A stretch of DNA of 31,857 nucleotides from a virus, in IMG/VR virus record IMGVR_UViG_3300037264_000560, positions 1 to 31,857 of that record, one strand, 5' to 3'. The translations under genes and the position numbers were made by a program. The notes beneath the pieces are model-generated. The model was not told the DNA's origin and searched no databases. It saw only the letters and a program-made list of their open reading frames with translations. Of the stretch, positions 4,297 through 31,558 are shown piece after piece (positions within the stretch are counted from its first letter, which is position 1; each line of letters starts with the position of its first letter).

Positions 4297-5993
4297 CCTG
4301 GCACCCAGCCGTACACCCAGTCGTCACCGTCCGGCGTCTGCACCGGATCGGGTGGGAACGTCACGCTTGGATCCATAATGACCTCCCAGCGACCGGCGTC
4401 CCGAATGACGCCCGTTCTGATGGTCGGGTTCGGATACGTGCCATCCAAATCCCCGCCGGCCGCGCCGACAGGTGTACCGGGAACCGTGATGGTCTTCTCT
4501 ACCCCCGTCCCCGAAGCGGTCACGCCTGCGCCAACGAAGTCCAATCGGTTCGCGGTTGTCGCCAGCGGCGTGCCTTCGTCCTCGACGGTGAGCGGTGAGC
4601 CGATCGCGCTGTACGTGCCCAGCGCGGTCATGTCCACCCACAGGCCCGTCGCGGGGTCCACCTGCCAGATGTGGCCGGTCACGCTGTTGATCCACGTCAC
4701 ATCGGCGTCACCCGGCGGATCTACTGGGTCGGCGTCGTGGACCTCGACGTGCGTGACCCGGATGACGGGATCGCTACCCGTGATCCCGGCGTCCGGCTCG
4801 CTCTCCTCGGCCTTCGGCTGGAGGGTCAGGACCGTCTCGGTGTGCCCGTCGTCGTTGACGACCAGCACCCAGCCCCAGCACGTCAGGTAGTTGGTCGGCC
4901 ACAGCGCCGTGTCCACGGGACCGCGCTGGATCAGGACCGGGAACGAGTCGCAGATGTCCCAGTTGTCCTTGATCGCGAGCTTGTCCACGCGCAGGCCGAG
5001 GCCGACTTGCTTGCCGATCGCGCCGACCTCCTGCGCGTAGCGGGCGGCTCGTCGCCGCAGGTCGTTCGTGTCGGCAATGTCCTGCCAGAAGTTGATCTTG
5101 GGCAGATTGCCGTAGCGCGTCTCGTTGTAGGTGGACAGCTCGCCAGTCGGCGGCGGGGTGCTGGCCGTGTGGTACTCGACCTGGAACCCGACCGGCGTCT
5201 TGCCGATGGCGAGTACGCGCGTCCCGAAGTCGCCGAACGGGATCGTCCGGTAGCCCTGCACCTGCGCGCCGTACTCCAGCTTGAGGTTCGGGCGATCGAC
5301 GCCGGGGTTGTCCTCGACCTCGAACGAGTAAGCGGCGGTGTACGTCAGGTCGTCCACCCACGTCAAGGTCTTCACCACGCGCAAGCGTGTTCGCCGTCCG
5401 GTCCCGGCACGGTGACTGTCGAGCAGGCCCTTGATGAACGGCAGCCGCTCGCGCATCGTGGCGTAGATCGTGACGACCTCGGGCATGGACGCCACGGACA
5501 CGGACGCGAAGAACCCGAGCGGACTGTCCGTGGTGGCGATGGCCCGTTCGAGCTGGTCGGTGACGATCTCGGTGATCGTGTTCTCGACGTACTTGGACCC
5601 GCCAGTGCCGGTAGGGTCGGACGGGTACAGTTCGGCCACCGCGTCGATCGCCTCGTCAGGGTTGAACCGCTCGTCCACGAGCACGCCGAGGATCCCGATG
5701 TAGTCGAGCCCGTAGAAGATCGTCTCCTGGTCGGTGGAGTCCATGTCCGTGATCCAGCCGACGTTCAGCTCCTTCCAGCCCTCGCCGGTGTACTCCTCCA
5801 GCGCCCAGTGCGTCTCCCACGGCAGGACGGCAGCGATAGCGGTGTGGTTATTCGGCAGCGTGAAGAACAACTCGCCTGCGTCGTTGTAGAACTCGCTAGC
5901 GCCAATGCCCTTGGCGTCCTCGATGGTGGCGACGATCGCCGCCGGCGCGCGCAGCGTTCCAGCGGCTCGGATCAAGATGCGGTGGCGGCTCAT
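4293..5993 (-). CDS. Tail hub / minor tail protein with fibre-docking C-terminus
   Basis: The protein is 566 aa with an ATG at 5993 overlapping the upstream stop (ATGA). The N-terminal ~380 residues fit the phage tail-hub family sometimes called Gp37-like in actinophage tails: an opening beta domain (MSRHRILIRAAG; GELFFTLPNNHTAI), a YGLDYIGILGVLVDERF segment, and a later WDICDSFPVLIQRG stretch. This protein would sit at the tail tip. The C-terminal ~170 residues differ and contain a fibre-type unit GGDLDGTYPNPTIRTG, related to the GGELGGTW units of the next gene. That suggests a docking region for the fibre. Hub assignment comes from sequence style and position after the Dit-like gene, not from a search. 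Confidence 0.65.
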   Translation of the reverse strand: MSRHRILIRAAGTLRAPAAIVATIEDAKGIGASEFYNDAGELFFTLPNNHTAIAAVLPWETHWALEEYTGEGWKELNVGWITDMDSTDQETIFYGLDYIGILGVLVDERFNPDEAIDAVAELYPSDPTGTGGSKYVENTITEIVTDQLERAIATTDSPLGFFASVSVASMPEVVTIYATMRERLPFIKGLLDSHRAGTGRRTRLRVVKTLTWVDDLTYTAAYSFEVEDNPGVDRPNLKLEYGAQVQGYRTIPFGDFGTRVLAIGKTPVGFQVEYHTASTPPPTGELSTYNETRYGNLPKINFWQDIADTNDLRRRAARYAQEVGAIGKQVGLGLRVDKLAIKDNWDICDSFPVLIQRGPVDTALWPTNYLTCWGWVLVVNDDGHTETVLTLQPKAEESEPDAGITGSDPVIRVTHVEVHDADPVDPPGDADVTWINSVTGHIWQVDPATGLWVDMTALGTYSAIGSPLTVEDEGTPLATTANRLDFVGAGVTASGTGVEKTITVPGTPVGAAGGDLDGTYPNPTIRTGVIRDAGRWEVIMDPSVTFPPDPVQTPDGDDWVYGWVPG

Positions 5994-26677: not shown

Positions 26678-27177
26678 CCGACCACTTCGTACGCCTCGCC
26701 CTCGATCACGAGATCGTCGGGCGGTTCGAGCAGCCCGATCGGGCCGTATCCAGCCAGCGCGCGGGCCATCATCAGGAACATCTGGCGATCAGTGGTCGCC
26801 GCCGCCCGCTTGTCGAGGATCTGGACCGCCGCGAGGCCGTCACGGATCGACGGCTCCAGCCGACCCTCCTGCACCGCCTCGATCGTCGCGTCACGGATCA
26901 GGATGGCGAGGTCGGCGGGCTTCTTGGCGGCCGATGGGATCGGGATGTAGTGCTTCCTGTGGGTCAGGATCGACTGCGCGCCCGTCTTGAGGTTCATGTC
27001 GTCGGTCAGCACGCCCGCGATGAACGCCGCCGAGTAGCCCTTAGCGAGCTGGGCGTCCACGTAGGCGGTCTTCCGCGGATCGTTGCAGATCGAGCACCGC
27101 TTCGGGGCAGGGATGATCTCGGGGATCTTCGGCACGCGCCGGCGGCCGACGACCTGGGGCTCGTCATCATCGGTCAT
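26674..27177 (-). CDS. Zn-finger/HTH protein, terminase small subunit candidate
   Basis: The protein is 167 aa from the ATG at 27177, overlapping the nuclease stop (ATGA); the upstream extension of the frame runs through that gene. CSIC (C28, C31) and H73, H76 (LTHRKHY) enclose a helix-turn-helix-like stretch (YVDAQLAKGYSAAFIAGVL). This C-x2-C...H-x2-H pattern with an HTH core is common in phage DNA-binding proteins before terminase genes. The C-terminal half is helical and could oligomerise or contact the motor. Position directly before the large subunit supports a role in recognising packaging sites. Confidence 0.65.
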   Translation of the reverse strand: MTDDDEPQVVGRRRVPKIPEIIPAPKRCSICNDPRKTAYVDAQLAKGYSAAFIAGVLTDDMNLKTGAQSILTHRKHYIPIPSAAKKPADLAILIRDATIEAVQEGRLEPSIRDGLAAVQILDKRAAATTDRQMFLMMARALAGYGPIGLLEPPDDLVIEGEAYEVVG

Positions 27178-27542
27178 GCTGCCAACACCGCCTGGATCTC
27201 CTTCCACTGATCGGGCTTCCAAACTACAGCCACCTGTCCAGCGGCGATCAGGATGTCGAGCCACGCCCACTGTTTCGGCGTCGGGTGGGTCAGCACCCGC
27301 TTGAACTCGGCAAAGATCGGCTGACGGCCCGGCTTCACGAAGATCACGTCGGGGAACCCGTCGGCGTCCCCGCTGACGGGTGTCGCCCAGACAGGAGCGT
27401 CGGGCGTGCCCGCGACGATGGCCTGGTAAAAGTGAACGGCTCTCCAGCCGCGCTTGCGGGCGAACCGGATGACCTTCGCCTGAAACGCCGACTCCAGCAC
27501 AGCGCGATCCGCGCGCTCGGTGTCGGTCAACTTGCGTGCCAT
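27174..27542 (-). CDS. VRR-NUC domain nuclease
   Basis: The protein is 122 aa from the ATG at 27542. FQAKVIRFARKRGWRAVHFY (20-39) is the opening helix and strand. GFPDVIFV with D65 and FAEFK with E79 and K81 form the PD-D/ExK catalytic core. QWAWLDILIAAGQVAVVWKP (91-110) is the C-terminal signature of VRR-NUC enzymes, often structure-specific or resolvase-like nucleases. It is the first gene of the leftward block, followed by the terminase genes, so it may trim branched replication DNA before packaging. No ribosome site is visible; the -10 lies 7 nt upstream, so the message may be leaderless. The start overlaps an operator palindrome. Confidence 0.85.
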   Translation of the reverse strand: MARKLTDTERADRAVLESAFQAKVIRFARKRGWRAVHFYQAIVAGTPDAPVWATPVSGDADGFPDVIFVKPGRQPIFAEFKRVLTHPTPKQWAWLDILIAAGQVAVVWKPDQWKEIQAVLAA

Positions 27543-27549
27543 CGCAAGT
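27530..27549. promoter_or_regulatory. Palindromic operator copy 2, over the start of the leftward block
   Basis: ACTTGCG-TGCCAT-CGCAAGT is a perfect 7-bp-arm inverted repeat with 6-bp spacer, the best of the set. It covers the predicted transcription start and first codons of the nuclease gene and touches the candidate -10 at 27550-27555. A protein bound here would block leftward late transcription. Confidence 0.6.
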
Positions 27550-27579
27550 ACGGTAGCACGCCCGCACAACTGAACGCAA
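27550..27579 (-). promoter_or_regulatory. Candidate leftward promoter, leaderless
   Basis: Reading leftward, TTGCGT (27579-27574) and TACCGT (27555-27550) are 18 bp apart. TACCGT fits the TANNNT form of high-G+C -10 boxes. It ends 7 nt before the ATG at 27542, so transcription should start at or next to the start codon, consistent with the missing ribosome site. The -35 is weak. The rightward promoter begins only 10 bp away. Confidence 0.45.
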
Positions 27580-27588
27580 AATCACCAC

Positions 27589-27617
27589 TTGACACCATCT
27601 CCCGTATCGCCTAGTAT
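27589..27617 (+). promoter_or_regulatory. Rightward promoter of the replication block
   Basis: TTGACA (27589-27594, perfect consensus) and TAGTAT (27612-27617) are separated by 17 bp. It is the best sigma-70-like promoter I found in the window. Transcription should begin near 27624-27625, at the first base of the inverted repeat that closes the leader RNA. It sits back-to-back with the candidate leftward promoter. Confidence 0.75.
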
Positions 27618-27624
27618 CTTCCTT

Positions 27625-27713
27625 GTCACTTCCGCTGGCTCCCCCTAGGGAATGAAAGCGTCCTCCGGCCGGAGGCGTGGTGCGTGAGAACCTAGAACAG
27701 CGGCGGAAGTGAC
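27625..27713 (+). ncRNA. Structured 5' leader RNA candidate (89 nt)
   Basis: GTCACTTCCGC (27625-27635) pairs with GCGGAAGTGAC (27703-27713) in a perfect 11-bp closing helix. Nested inside are CTAGG (27645-27649) with CCTAG (27691-27695). Inside those is a hairpin CCTCC-GGCC-GGAGG (27662-27675) extended by two C-G pairs around a bulged U. The purine-rich internal strands GGAATGAAAG and TGGTGCGTGAGAA face each other. The element starts at the predicted transcription start and ends 24 nt before the AGGAGG ribosome site of the first gene. It could be a cis-regulatory RNA, attenuator or 5'-stability element. I do not recognise a known class. Confidence 0.6.
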
Positions 27714-27750
27714 CGAGCCACCCCCAATCACCCCACAGGAGGCACCACGC

Positions 27751-28140
27751 ATGGGCAACATCGTCAAGATCACCGCCGGCGGACCCGACATCGAGGCCGG
27801 GGTCTACCCCGCCAAGCTCACCGGGGTCAGCATCTTCGACCCCGAGGACGACAAGGGCAACAAGACCAGCCAGTACGGCCCGTCGCGCAAGTGGGAGTTC
27901 GATGCGCTGGACGAGGGCGAGCTGGTCGAAGTGGACTGCCTGACCTCGCTGTTCCTCAACTCGGGCAGCCGTGGCGGGCAGAACCTCACCGCGATCCTCG
28001 GCCGTCAGCCGGAAGTCGGCGAGGAAGTCGATCTCGATGACCTCGTTGGCAAGCCGTGTCAGGTCGTCATCGGGCTCAACAAGAAGGGCACGCGGATGAC
28101 CGTCGTGCAGGTGCTCCCGGCGAAGAAGGTCAAGGCGTGA
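27751..28140 (+). CDS. Putative ssDNA-binding protein (OB-fold-like)
   Basis: The protein is 129 aa. The ATG at 27751 is chosen because AGGAGG lies 9 nt before it; an in-frame GTG 14 codons upstream falls in the leader helix. The beta-rich pattern (GVYPAKLTGVSIFDPEDD; YGPSRKWEFDALDEGELVEV; CLTSLFLNSGSRGGQNLTAILGR; VGKPCQVVIGLNKKGTRMTV) resembles small phage proteins thought to bind single-stranded DNA. As first gene of the replication block, that role fits. It ends with a Lys-rich tail rather than the acidic tail of classical SSBs. Family assignment is by resemblance. Confidence 0.6.
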   Translation: MGNIVKITAGGPDIEAGVYPAKLTGVSIFDPEDDKGNKTSQYGPSRKWEFDALDEGELVEVDCLTSLFLNSGSRGGQNLTAILGRQPEVGEEVDLDDLVGKPCQVVIGLNKKGTRMTVVQVLPAKKVKA

Positions 28141-28325
28141 ACGACGACCCCCTGATGACCGTCCACGACATCGCGAAGATGTGGGGTGTCCACGTGCGGA
28201 CGGTTCGCACGTGGATCCGCATTGGCCGGCTGGCGACCGTTCGGACGGAGGGCGTGTTCCGCGTCCGCGTCCGGCTGTCGGTCGCAGAGTCGGCCCTGGG
28301 AGAACGACCCAGCACGACGGCGTAA
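28137..28325 (+). CDS. Small helix-turn-helix protein (MerR/excisionase-like)
   Basis: The protein is 62 aa with a GTG at 28137 overlapping the upstream stop (GTGA) and AAGAAGG just before it. LMTVHDIAKMWGVHVRTVRTWIRIGRLATVR is a helix-turn-helix of the MerR/HTH_17 type. The wing (VFRVRVRLSV) follows and the protein ends soon after. Such proteins act as excisionases or small transcription regulators. It is the only evident sequence-specific regulator in the rightward block and a possible, unproven, binder of the TTGCG-N6-CGCAA palindromes. Confidence 0.75.
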   Translation: MNDDPLMTVHDIAKMWGVHVRTVRTWIRIGRLATVRTEGVFRVRVRLSVAESALGERPSTTA

Positions 28326-28329
28326 CCCC

Positions 28330-29106
28330 GTGAGCGACAACGTGCTACTCGCAGGTATCGAGTACATGCGGGCTGGCTTGGCGATCCTCGCCCTGAACGG
28401 CAAGTCGCCGAACGGGCGGTACCACAAGCCGAACCAGACGCCAGCGTGGGACCCGTTTACATCCCCGGACGACCCACGCTGGGCGAAAGCAGCCGCCCAC
28501 CGCTCCACGAGCGGCGTCGGGCTAATCATCCCCGAGCACCTGTGCGTGCTCGACATCGACGGAGAGGCCGGAGCGGTCGCGTTCCGGCAGCTCGTCGGCC
28601 CTGGCGTGCCGTGGTGGGGGATCGCCAGGACCGGACGGGGGCTGCACCTGTGGTTCCTGTCACCGCGGGTCATCCGCAACGGGAAGCTGGCCGAGAAACT
28701 GGACATCAAGGGCCACGGGGGCTACGTCGTCGCCCCGCCGTCCGTCCATCCCGAGCTGGGGACGGTCTACGAGTGGCTGGATCCGCTCGTCGTTGACGGC
28801 CAGGTCCACACCGACTTCCTGCCCGACGCCATCGAGGAGGCCATCGCCGCACGGGAGGGAGAGATGTCCGTGGGCCTTGCGGGGACGTTCCGCGGTGGTA
28901 GCCTTGATGGTCTTACGCGCCACGTCGCGTCATCGACCGAGGGCGGCAGGAATGACACCTTGAACTGGGCCGCGTGGACGGCCCGCCAGGACGGCTTCCC
29001 CGTCTCCGAAGCCCTCCCGGCGCTCGTTGAGGCAGCGATGACGGCAGGGTTGCCGCAAGCAGAAGCCGTGCGGACCGTGAAGTCCGCCTACCGAGGGGCA
29101 CGATGA
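28330..29106 (+). CDS. Prim-pol type primase/polymerase
   Basis: The protein is 258 aa from the GTG at 28330 (4 bp after the previous stop; no strong ribosome site; the upstream frame overlaps the HTH gene). GIEYMRAGLAILALNGKSP opens the bifunctional primase-polymerase domain. SGVGLIIPEHLCVLDIDG holds the catalytic DxD (D75, D77), TGRGLHLWF holds H106, and LDIKGHGGYVVAPPSVH (124-140) is a further signature. The C-terminus (NDTLNWAAWTARQDG...AEAVRTVKSAYRG) resembles the primase C-terminal helical domain that links to the helicase. It probably primes replication together with the SF3 helicase two genes downstream. Confidence 0.85.
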   Translation: MSDNVLLAGIEYMRAGLAILALNGKSPNGRYHKPNQTPAWDPFTSPDDPRWAKAAAHRSTSGVGLIIPEHLCVLDIDGEAGAVAFRQLVGPGVPWWGIARTGRGLHLWFLSPRVIRNGKLAEKLDIKGHGGYVVAPPSVHPELGTVYEWLDPLVVDGQVHTDFLPDAIEEAIAAREGEMSVGLAGTFRGGSLDGLTRHVASSTEGGRNDTLNWAAWTARQDGFPVSEALPALVEAAMTAGLPQAEAVRTVKSAYRGAR

Positions 29107-29300
29107 CCGACCTAGACCTCGACGCTCTCGAAAACACAGCTAGAGATGCCCGAGCCGCGGGCGCCCTGTGGATCAGGGTTTTCCCGAACACCCTTCTCAC
29201 CCTGATTGAACTAGCCAGAGCGGCACAAGAAGCACCAGCACCTGAGGAATGGAACGCCAGCAGCATCGCCGTTCATTCGTGGGAGCGCGATCACGAATGA
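29103..29300 (+). CDS. Small unknown protein (65 aa)
   Basis: The protein is 65 aa with an ATG at 29103 overlapping the primase stop (ATGA) and GAGGGG upstream. It is acidic and helical (LDLDALENTARDARAAG; FPNTLLTLIELARAAQEA), resembling the short segments of Ead/Ea22-like phage proteins. It lies between primase and Dam methyltransferase, each overlapping by one base or more, so it is co-translated. Function is unknown. Confidence 0.65.
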   Translation: MTDLDLDALENTARDARAAGALWIRVFPNTLLTLIELARAAQEAPAPEEWNASSIAVHSWERDHE

Positions 29301-29764
29301 CAGTCCACGAGAAGCCTGTTGGCGCAACCGTCGAGTGGTACACGCCGCCCGAACTGTTCGCCAAGCTCGATCTGGAGTTCGACCTCGACCCGGCGTCGCC
29401 GAACCCCCCCGTCCCGTGGGTTCCAGCCGCGCGGTTCATGTGGCAGGACGGCCACACGCTCCCGTGGACGGGCCGCGTGTGGCTCAACCCGCCATACGGC
29501 CCCAAAGCGGTCCCGTTCGTGGAGCGAATGATCGCCCACGGCGACGGGATGCTCCTGCTCCCAGCCAGAACCGAGACGCGAGCGTTCCAGCGAGCCGCAA
29601 CGGAGGCCAAGGCGGTCTGCTTCCTCCGTGAACGGCTCTGGTTCAAGCGCGCCGACGGGTTCCAGGCACGGTCATCGTTCGGGTCAGTCCTGTTCGCGTT
29701 CGGGTGGGACTGCTGGTACGCCCTCCAGACAGCCGATCTGGGCTTCACCGTCTCGAACGACTGA
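29297..29764 (+). CDS. DNA adenine-N6 methyltransferase (Dam-like, phage type)
   Basis: The protein is 155 aa from the ATG at 29297, overlapping the upstream stop (ATGA), with GGGAG upstream. EWYTPPELFAKLDLEFDLDPA, GRVWLNPPYG (NPPYG at 64-68) and MLLLPARTETRAFQ match the phage Dam family (PF05869 type), with the NPPY catalytic motif. It would methylate adenine in phage DNA, protecting it from restriction or marking it for replication or packaging. No cognate endonuclease is seen, so it is an orphan methyltransferase. Confidence 0.9.
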   Translation: MTVHEKPVGATVEWYTPPELFAKLDLEFDLDPASPNPPVPWVPAARFMWQDGHTLPWTGRVWLNPPYGPKAVPFVERMIAHGDGMLLLPARTETRAFQRAATEAKAVCFLRERLWFKRADGFQARSSFGSVLFAFGWDCWYALQTADLGFTVSND

Positions 29765-31290
29765 TGGTGGCTAACCTCATCGAGTTCCCACCGCCCGCGC
29801 GCGTACGCGAGGAAGACACGGACCCCGAGTTCTCGGACAAGCTCGTGGACGGCCCCGGCAACGACGACGTGGAGGTCCCCGAGGCCGACAAGAAGCTCGT
29901 GCTGGACAAGACGGACGACCGCCTGGCGGACCTGTACGACCGGCCGTGGCCGGCGGGGATCAGGGACCGGGTGCGGTACGACCACAGCAAGCAACGCTGG
30001 CACGTGCTCGCGGAGAAGACGAGCATCTGGCGGCCGGACGAGACGGGCATGATCTACTTCCTGATGGCGGAGTGCCTGGGCAGGTGGATGGCGTCGGCCG
30101 CCCTCGACGGCGCCACGGGAAAGATCGCCGCGTACTCCGTGCTCCTCAACCAGCAGAAGAAGGAGTCGGTCCTCAAAGCCCTCCGCTGGCACCGCGGGAT
30201 CGCGATGAAGGGCGACGAGTGGGACCCCGACTCGAACCTCCTCGGCTGCGCGAACGGGATCGTTGACTTGCGAACGGCCAAGCTGATCCGGGGCCAGCAC
30301 CCGGAGTTGCTGGTGACGCGCTCGACGGGGATCGTCTACGAGCCGGACGCGTGGCAGACGAAGTGCCCGCGGTTCATGTCGTTCCTGCTGGAGATCACGT
30401 CGGGGAACCTGGAGCTGACGCAGTACCTCCTGCGCGTGCTGGGCTACAGCCTGTACGGCGCCCAGCGCGAGCAGAAGTTCTGGGTGTTTATCGGCAACGG
30501 CCAGAACGGCAAGGGCGTGCTCGTGAAGGCGGTCGCCCACGTGCTGGGGGACTACGCCATGTTCGCCTCGTCGGCCATGTACATGCGGTCCAAGCACGGC
30601 GATCCGGGCTCGTCCGGGCCGCGGGCGGACCTGATGGCGTTGCAGGGCAAGCGGTTCCTGACGACCTCGGAGCCGGTCCAGGGCGCGTTCAACGACGAGC
30701 TGGTCAAGCACCACACGGGCGGCGATCCCGTCCGCGCTCGCGCGCTCCACTCGAACACCGAACTCCAGTTCCCGCCGACGTGGACGATCTTCTTCCTGAC
30801 GAACAACCCGCCCAAGCTCGAAGACGTGGGCAAGTCGATGCAGCGCCGGCTGCGGGCGGTCCACTTCAACGAGGACTTCTCGGGGCCGCGGGACGACAAG
30901 AACCTGGAGGAGCTGTTCAAGGGGCCGGAGGCGGTCGGGATCCTGTCCACGCTCGTCATGCAGGCCGCGCTGTACTTCGACGCCGGGCTGACCGAGCCGG
31001 AGATCGTCACCGACTCGTCCAGGCAGTACATCGAGGAGAACGACCCGATCAGCGAGTTCATCCACGACTGCTGCGTCATCGAGCCGCGAGTGTCGGTCCA
31101 GTCCAAGCTCCTGTTCGCCGAGTACATGTCCTGGTCAGCCGAGACGGGAGCCGAGGCGCTGACGCTCTCCGCGTTCGGGGCGGCCATCGCCCGACGGTTC
31201 ACCAAGGAGAAGCGCCGGAACGGCATCTTCCACCTCGGGATCCGGCTCAAGGGAGCGATGGAGTTGGCGGCCGCCGACCAGGGCTCGTAA
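29764..31290 (+). CDS. SF3/D5-type replicative helicase
   Basis: The protein is 508 aa with an ATG at 29764 overlapping the Dam stop (TGATG). LLGCANGIVDLRT (159-171) is the D5 N-terminal signature. GNGQNGKG (244-251) is Walker A, LTTSEP (299-304) Walker B, TNNPP (346-350) sensor 1, and QRRLRAVHF (360-368) holds the arginine finger: together the SF3 helicase of P4/D5 type. The ~200-residue C-terminus is probably winged-helix. No primase domain is fused; the prim-pol gene upstream supplies it. The hexamer would unwind the origin, plausibly in the repeat-rich DNA just downstream. Confidence 0.9.
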   Translation: MVANLIEFPPPARVREEDTDPEFSDKLVDGPGNDDVEVPEADKKLVLDKTDDRLADLYDRPWPAGIRDRVRYDHSKQRWHVLAEKTSIWRPDETGMIYFLMAECLGRWMASAALDGATGKIAAYSVLLNQQKKESVLKALRWHRGIAMKGDEWDPDSNLLGCANGIVDLRTAKLIRGQHPELLVTRSTGIVYEPDAWQTKCPRFMSFLLEITSGNLELTQYLLRVLGYSLYGAQREQKFWVFIGNGQNGKGVLVKAVAHVLGDYAMFASSAMYMRSKHGDPGSSGPRADLMALQGKRFLTTSEPVQGAFNDELVKHHTGGDPVRARALHSNTELQFPPTWTIFFLTNNPPKLEDVGKSMQRRLRAVHFNEDFSGPRDDKNLEELFKGPEAVGILSTLVMQAALYFDAGLTEPEIVTDSSRQYIEENDPISEFIHDCCVIEPRVSVQSKLLFAEYMSWSAETGAEALTLSAFGAAIARRFTKEKRRNGIFHLGIRLKGAMELAAADQGS

Positions 31291-31421: not shown

Positions 31422-31437
31422 TTGCGTAAACGCGCAA
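31422..31437. promoter_or_regulatory. Palindromic operator copy 5
   Basis: TTGCG-TAAACG-CGCAA has perfect 5-bp arms and a 6-bp spacer. It is interleaved with the TGTGCA hexamer array. Together with copies 3 and 4 it makes this the densest operator cluster in the window. Confidence 0.55.
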
Positions 31438-31466
31438 GTGTGTGCACACCTGTGCATACTTTTCAT

Positions 31467-31481
31467 ACTTTCCCCGAAAGT
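31467..31481. other. Short hairpin in the control region
   Basis: ACTTTC-CCC-GAAAGT is a perfect 6-bp stem with a 3-nt loop, lying in the A+T-richer gap between the two TGTGCA groups. TCCCCGA here is also complementary to TCGGGGA at 31512-31518, so alternative pairing is possible. The role is unknown. Confidence 0.35.
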
Positions 31482-31558
31482 TCTAAGCTGTACGCTCGCG
31501 TAAGGGAGTTATCGGGGAATGTGTGCAGAGTGTGCAAGGGTGTGCACACTCAAGCGAC

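Follow-up and report, generated by a model that had tools for sequence, protein, structure and literature searches.

An oversized predicted 5′-terminal stem-loop on a phage replication operon transcript and start-proximal hairpins in the leaders of its relatives

An 89-nt nested stem-loop is predicted at the 5′ end of a replication operon transcript in an uncultured phage. We read it as an oversized form of a small start-proximal hairpin common among related phages, a 5′-terminal stem-loop that would protect the replication operon mRNA, and we put the chance of this reading being right at about even. Protection appears to be the likeliest job of the element, with autoregulation by a single-stranded DNA (ssDNA)-binding protein (SSB) as the main rival, and a cap that protects or regulates the message is more probable than any known riboswitch. 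Features of this kind are already known; the enrichment of start-proximal hairpins across the family is the new result, and a limited literature search found no description of such family-wide positional conservation or of this element.

The DNA analyzed (the window) comprises all 31,857 bases of an IMG/VR virus record and has a GC content of 0.65. Terminase, portal-like, and VRR-NUC-like genes are read leftward, and a rightward early/replication module begins at 27751. The 89-nt element sits in the divergent gap between the two, and the features of this region are as follows.

27177 to 27542, − strand: divergent VRR-NUC-like gene; small terminase-like, terminase, and portal-like genes lie further left
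27589 to 27617, + strand: σ70-like promoter, TTGACA-17-TAGTAT, with its predicted start at G27625; a similar promoter is present in the closest relative, L035
27625 to 27713, + strand: nested 5′-terminal stem-loop of 89 nt, folding better in sense than in antisense
27625 to 27635, + strand: 5′ arm of the 11-bp closing helix, 100% complementary to 27703 to 27713 (pair probability, 0.98 to 1.0)
27662 to 27675, + strand: apical hairpin CCUCC-GGCC-GGAGG, as DNA a 14-bp palindrome
27675 to 27683, + strand: GCGUGGUGC, a 9-nt perfect complement of the ribosome-binding site (RBS) spacer and possible switch or pseudoknot strand
27703 to 27713, + strand: 3′ arm of the 11-bp closing helix
27737 to 27750, + strand: Shine-Dalgarno AGGAGG (27737 to 27742) and spacer to the ATG, read from the sequence
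27742 to 27750, + strand: GCACCACGC, pairing partner of 27675 to 27683
27751 to 28140, + strand: P0001, opening the replication operon and predicted to be an ssDNA-binding-like protein with an OB fold (AlphaFold, Foldseek)
28137 to 28325, + strand: small HTH/MerR-like (excisionase-like) gene (Pfam HTH_17 and MerR; PHROG excisionase/regulator)
28330 to 29106, + strand: Prim-Pol (PF09250; E value, 7.5e−22)
29249 to 29764, + strand: Dam-like N6-adenine methyltransferase (PF05869)
29764 to 31290, + strand: D5-type primase/helicase (PF08706, PF03288)

The orientation of the replication module relative to the terminase genes varies: the two diverge in the window, as they do in L035 and many relatives, and are codirectional in others (compared with L007, L012, and L027, the module of the window is inverted relative to the terminase genes). 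An origin-like module was also observed at 31433 to 31556 of the window, with a core of AAAGTYC-N10-20-CTCGCGTA between inverted, phage-specific repeats (GTGTGCAC in the window; CCTCCATACC, CCTACATACC, and ACTCACCACT elsewhere). The same module occurs at L007 1851, L012 1301, and L117 241; in relatives its place is upstream of the ssb-like gene, whereas in the window it follows D5.

A preliminary description of the sequence had named the promoter at 27589 to 27617 as the strongest in the window, and it is indeed the only σ70-type match at 10 of 12 positions. G27625 is the first purine downstream of the −10 element, after seven pyrimidines, and the 11-bp closing helix begins at this +1, a start predicted from the sequence. 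All structural parts originally proposed were recovered, namely the perfectly complementary 11-bp closing helix, an inner 5-bp helix (27645 to 27649 with 27691 to 27695), the GGCC-loop hairpin with its bulge, and purine-rich internal strands. The view that promoter, predicted start, structured leader, and Shine-Dalgarno belong together is supported, and a ligand- or protein-responsive cis-regulatory role is putative. The further remark that the RNA ends just before the ribosome site is right as to order, the Shine-Dalgarno being downstream of the element, but the distance is 24 nt and the site does not adjoin its end. A ten-codon upstream open reading frame (GTG at 27680 to TGA at 27712; VRENLEQRRK) lies within the element behind GGAGG, and its stop codon shares bases with a GTG that is in the P0001 reading frame. 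No T-run follows the 3′ arm at 27713, and the element is therefore not an intrinsic terminator or attenuator.

The predicted minimum free energy of the element, −44.1 kcal/mol, was equalled by none of 200 shuffles (z-score, −3.54; range across tests, −3.5 to −3.9), and the sense strand folded better than the antisense strand (−44.1 versus −38.0 kcal/mol; z-scores, −3.9 versus −2.9). The z-score was lost when 136 to 176 nt were scored (−1.2 and +0.05), and the signal is therefore confined to the 89-nt element. The significance of the 11-bp repeat depends on the question asked. Across the whole window, four 11-bp inverted repeats within 120 bp were seen against 3.06 ± 2.4 expected, which is ordinary, whereas within the 126-nt leader any 11-bp inverted repeat occurred in only 0.16% of shuffles (P = 0.0016) and one placed at the start site in 0.01% (1e−4).

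The earlier inability to match the element to a known riboswitch or ribozyme was borne out by the Rfam covariance models, which gave no match in the window at gathering thresholds and none up to an E value of 10 within 27500 to 27800; the same search on 17 related loci also returned nothing. A degenerate tRNA was rejected, as ARAGORN found no tRNA in the window and no Rfam tRNA match was obtained. For comparison, viral contigs and genomes were searched with terminase and D5, which gave 142 related loci (1.4 Mb), not all of them separate, as some contigs contributed overlapping stretches. No recognizable homologue of the 89-nt element was identified among these loci. Using nhmmer, the element was found in the window only, and a single-sequence covariance model run over the same 1.4 Mb recovered the window element alone (and, weakly, its own reverse complement), all else having E values of >1. 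BLASTN against phages and plasmids yielded no meaningful match to the element, and an exact scan of viral contigs for the internal-strand pattern yielded none. The conserved promoter-flank pattern matched the L035 contig only. L035 is the closest relative (terminase, 58%; D5, 55%; VRR, 54%) and shares the divergent layout; judged by eye, it also has a similar promoter in the corresponding position. In L035 a tRNA-Leu(CAA) predicted by ARAGORN (5802 to 5888, − strand) occupies the slot of the 89-nt element a few nucleotides behind the replication operon promoter, and in most of the other divergent relatives the leader is short.

Start-proximal hairpins are enriched in the leaders of the first replication gene. 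The comparison covered 44 relatives with a recognizable promoter (the −10 boxes of L007, L012, L020, and L105 were set by eye), whose starts are predicted and whose loci are related and so not fully independent statistically. Over the 34 nt that follow the predicted start, the mean z-score was −1.36, with 61% below −1, against −0.61 to +0.17 in upstream, promoter, and coding controls (Mann-Whitney P = 4e−9, a value made optimistic, like those of the other leader tests, by the kinship of the loci and the use of predicted start sites). A hairpin of at least 5 pairs starting within 16 nt of the −10 box was present in 37 of 43 leaders, the window included, compared with 20.4 expected. The sense strand was again favored (z-scores, −1.35 versus −0.76; P = 5e−6) after shuffle correction for composition; uncorrected energies in the relatives are more stable for antisense, which we attribute to base composition. 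Optimistic P values notwithstanding, the effect is a broad one. The stems vary in sequence from group to group (CCGGTC/GACCGG in L027, CCCGAC/GTCGGG in L116, GATCGGC/GCCGATC in L087), column alignments of the leaders were of poor quality, and from the differing stems it appears that position and pairing, not sequence, are kept.

Other arrangements were seen in subsets of the relatives. The ssb-like gene leaders of L038, L040, and L047 (131 to 138 nt) carry a start-proximal hairpin followed, before the gene, by a terminator-like hairpin and T-rich tail; judged by these motifs, they are possible attenuators or small RNAs. In L112, L116 to L119, L122, L126 to L128, and L030 the Shine-Dalgarno lies within a small hairpin (e.g., GCTCGAAAGGAGC, GGTCGAAAGGAGACC, and AGGCTGAAAGGAGCCT) whose stems differ in an apparently compensated manner. 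Direct repeats of the GTGTAGCA/GTGTTGCA type, approximately 11 bp apart by eye, overlap the ssb promoter in L053, L058, L064, L067, and L072 and look like operator or initiator sites.

The product of the first gene, P0001, had no Pfam or PHROG match. Its AlphaFold model (pLDDT, 83) was OB-fold-like, and the best Foldseek matches in the PDB were PrgE, an ssDNA-binding protein of pCF10 (PMC11137577), and RPA OB folds (E value, about 1e−3; TM score of 0.56, a moderate match). Matches among viral structures included an SSB-annotated protein and DUF669 proteins, and a gene-family HMM had 66 matches in the related loci. From the model, P0001 is predicted to be an OB-fold ssDNA-binding-like protein.

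A helix formed from the first transcribed base guards bacterial mRNAs against 5′-end-dependent decay, and it is established that 5′ hairpins impede RppH and stabilize mRNA (PMC3997798). Likewise, the mRNA of T4 gene 32, the T4 ssb, is described as stabilized by a 5′ leader hairpin in the part of PMC8948821 that cites Gorski 1985. On these precedents the element is read as an oversized 5′-terminal stem-loop. From the computed fold, the position behind a strong promoter, the rarity within the leader, the sense-strand enrichment, and the OB-fold prediction, we infer a transcription start at G27625, folding in the cell, and protection of the mRNA. The element would form the 5′ end of the replication operon mRNA (ssb-like, HTH, Prim-Pol, Dam, and D5). 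Were transcription to begin at G27625, the first base would already be in the 11-bp helix and there would thus be no single-stranded 5′ end. Such a locked end would most likely block 5′-end-dependent decay, whether by pyrophosphate removal and 5′-tethered RNase E or, in other hosts, by RNase J/Y. The first 89 nt would be folded away, while the short C/A-rich stretch and the Shine-Dalgarno would stay open to ribosomes. Several points count against protection. No homologue of the 89-nt element was recovered, and the relatives that show the hairpin enrichment are not statistically independent and have predicted starts. A simple hairpin of 10 to 15 nt would suffice to protect a 5′ end, and the element, with its 89 nt and purine-rich internal strands, seems overbuilt for that purpose. 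The tRNA in the same slot of L035 is expected to be cut by RNase P, leaving no comparable 5′ cap.

Among the alternatives, P0001 could bind its own leader, recognizing the structure together with the C/A-rich stretch over the Shine-Dalgarno, and repress its translation when in excess of ssDNA; reasoning by analogy with T4 gp32, we regard this autoregulatory operator as possible but rather unlikely. The leader's first gene does encode a predicted OB-fold protein, and repression by gp32 relies on a folded 5′ element together with an unstructured stretch over the RBS, in operators that diverge between phages (PMC535899, PMC3014915), a layout similar to that seen here. However, the C/A-rich stretch is also found in relatives lacking the large element, and both the binding of ssDNA or RNA by P0001 and its specific recognition of the leader are putative. 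A two-state translational switch or pseudoknot, in which 27675 to 27683 would pair with 27742 to 27750 to close the RBS and a ligand or protein would select the state, is improbable. The 9-nt perfect complement ends exactly at the ATG (P = 6.5e−4 for a pre-ATG complement in shuffles), but it was noticed after many features had been inspected, an energy-based test gave a P value of only 0.02, and the alternative nested fold is less stable by 11 kcal/mol (−41.6 versus −52.9 kcal/mol). Relatives have no such enrichment (z-score, about 0), and long-range RBS pairing was therefore rejected as a family-wide feature. The two ideas can be joined: fast-diverging 5′-terminal hairpins, kept by position, might let the OB-fold protein control its own synthesis, with the 89-nt form an elaborated operator whose second state pairs 27675 to 27683 with the RBS. 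This combination is quite unlikely; if true, a large family of uncultured phages would share autoregulatory leaders of a new kind.

The element might instead act as DNA, in the form of operator half-sites, a replication origin, or a MITE-like insertion with 11-bp terminal inverted repeats, to which we assign a low probability. The inverted ends lie exactly at the borders, the 14-bp palindrome is at the center, and the short leaders of relatives lend it the look of an insertion. Against this, neither the related loci nor the phage and plasmid records searched contained a second copy, there is no visible target duplication, and folding favors the sense strand over the antisense. A replication origin in particular was rejected, the origin-like module being located at 31433 to 31556 instead. 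A functionless chance fold in GC-rich DNA would suit the window-wide frequency of 11-bp repeats and of equally stable folds (of the 6,354 pieces of 89 nt that were scanned, 112 fold no worse than the element) and the weak z-score of the whole leader, yet the rarity specific to the leader and start site and the hairpin enrichment across the family make it very improbable.

Both protection and its main rival have a counterpart in the T4 gene 32 leader, which contains the site of autoregulation and also makes the mRNA more stable (PMC3014915, PMC535899, and the passage in PMC8948821). Like it, the window has a structured 5′ leader on the message of a phage protein, here one with a predicted ssDNA-binding-like OB fold, with a folded element and then a less structured stretch carrying the RBS. 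Unlike it, the window combines an 89-nt nested hairpin with a C/A-rich stretch, where T4 has an ∼28-nt pseudoknot and an A+U-rich stretch. We saw no sequence similarity between the two, and the H-type pseudoknot and A+U-rich repeats over the RBS that typify gene 32 are absent, the best fold being a nested hairpin. The 5′-terminal stem-loops of the Escherichia coli ompA type, which impede 5′-end-dependent decay (PMC3997798 and references there), also extend from the transcript 5′ end. With its predicted start, the element has a stem-loop at or within a few nucleotides of the 5′ end, as in that class; it is much larger and nested, and stabilization would be its presumed effect. Early phage transcripts also carry structured RNA near their start in the case of the HK022 put sites, which act in antitermination and are pairs of short stem-loops. 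They share with the element a location near the transcript start and differ in lying further from it; compared through Rfam only, they gave no match.

In this uncultured phage family, then, the replication-gene message tends to begin with a hairpin whose sequence is free to change. The leaders of its relatives are natural variants that bear on the protection of early messages by 5′ hairpins in phages, and the same leaders bear on whether autoregulation by an SSB, as with T4 gene 32, extends beyond T4-like phages.
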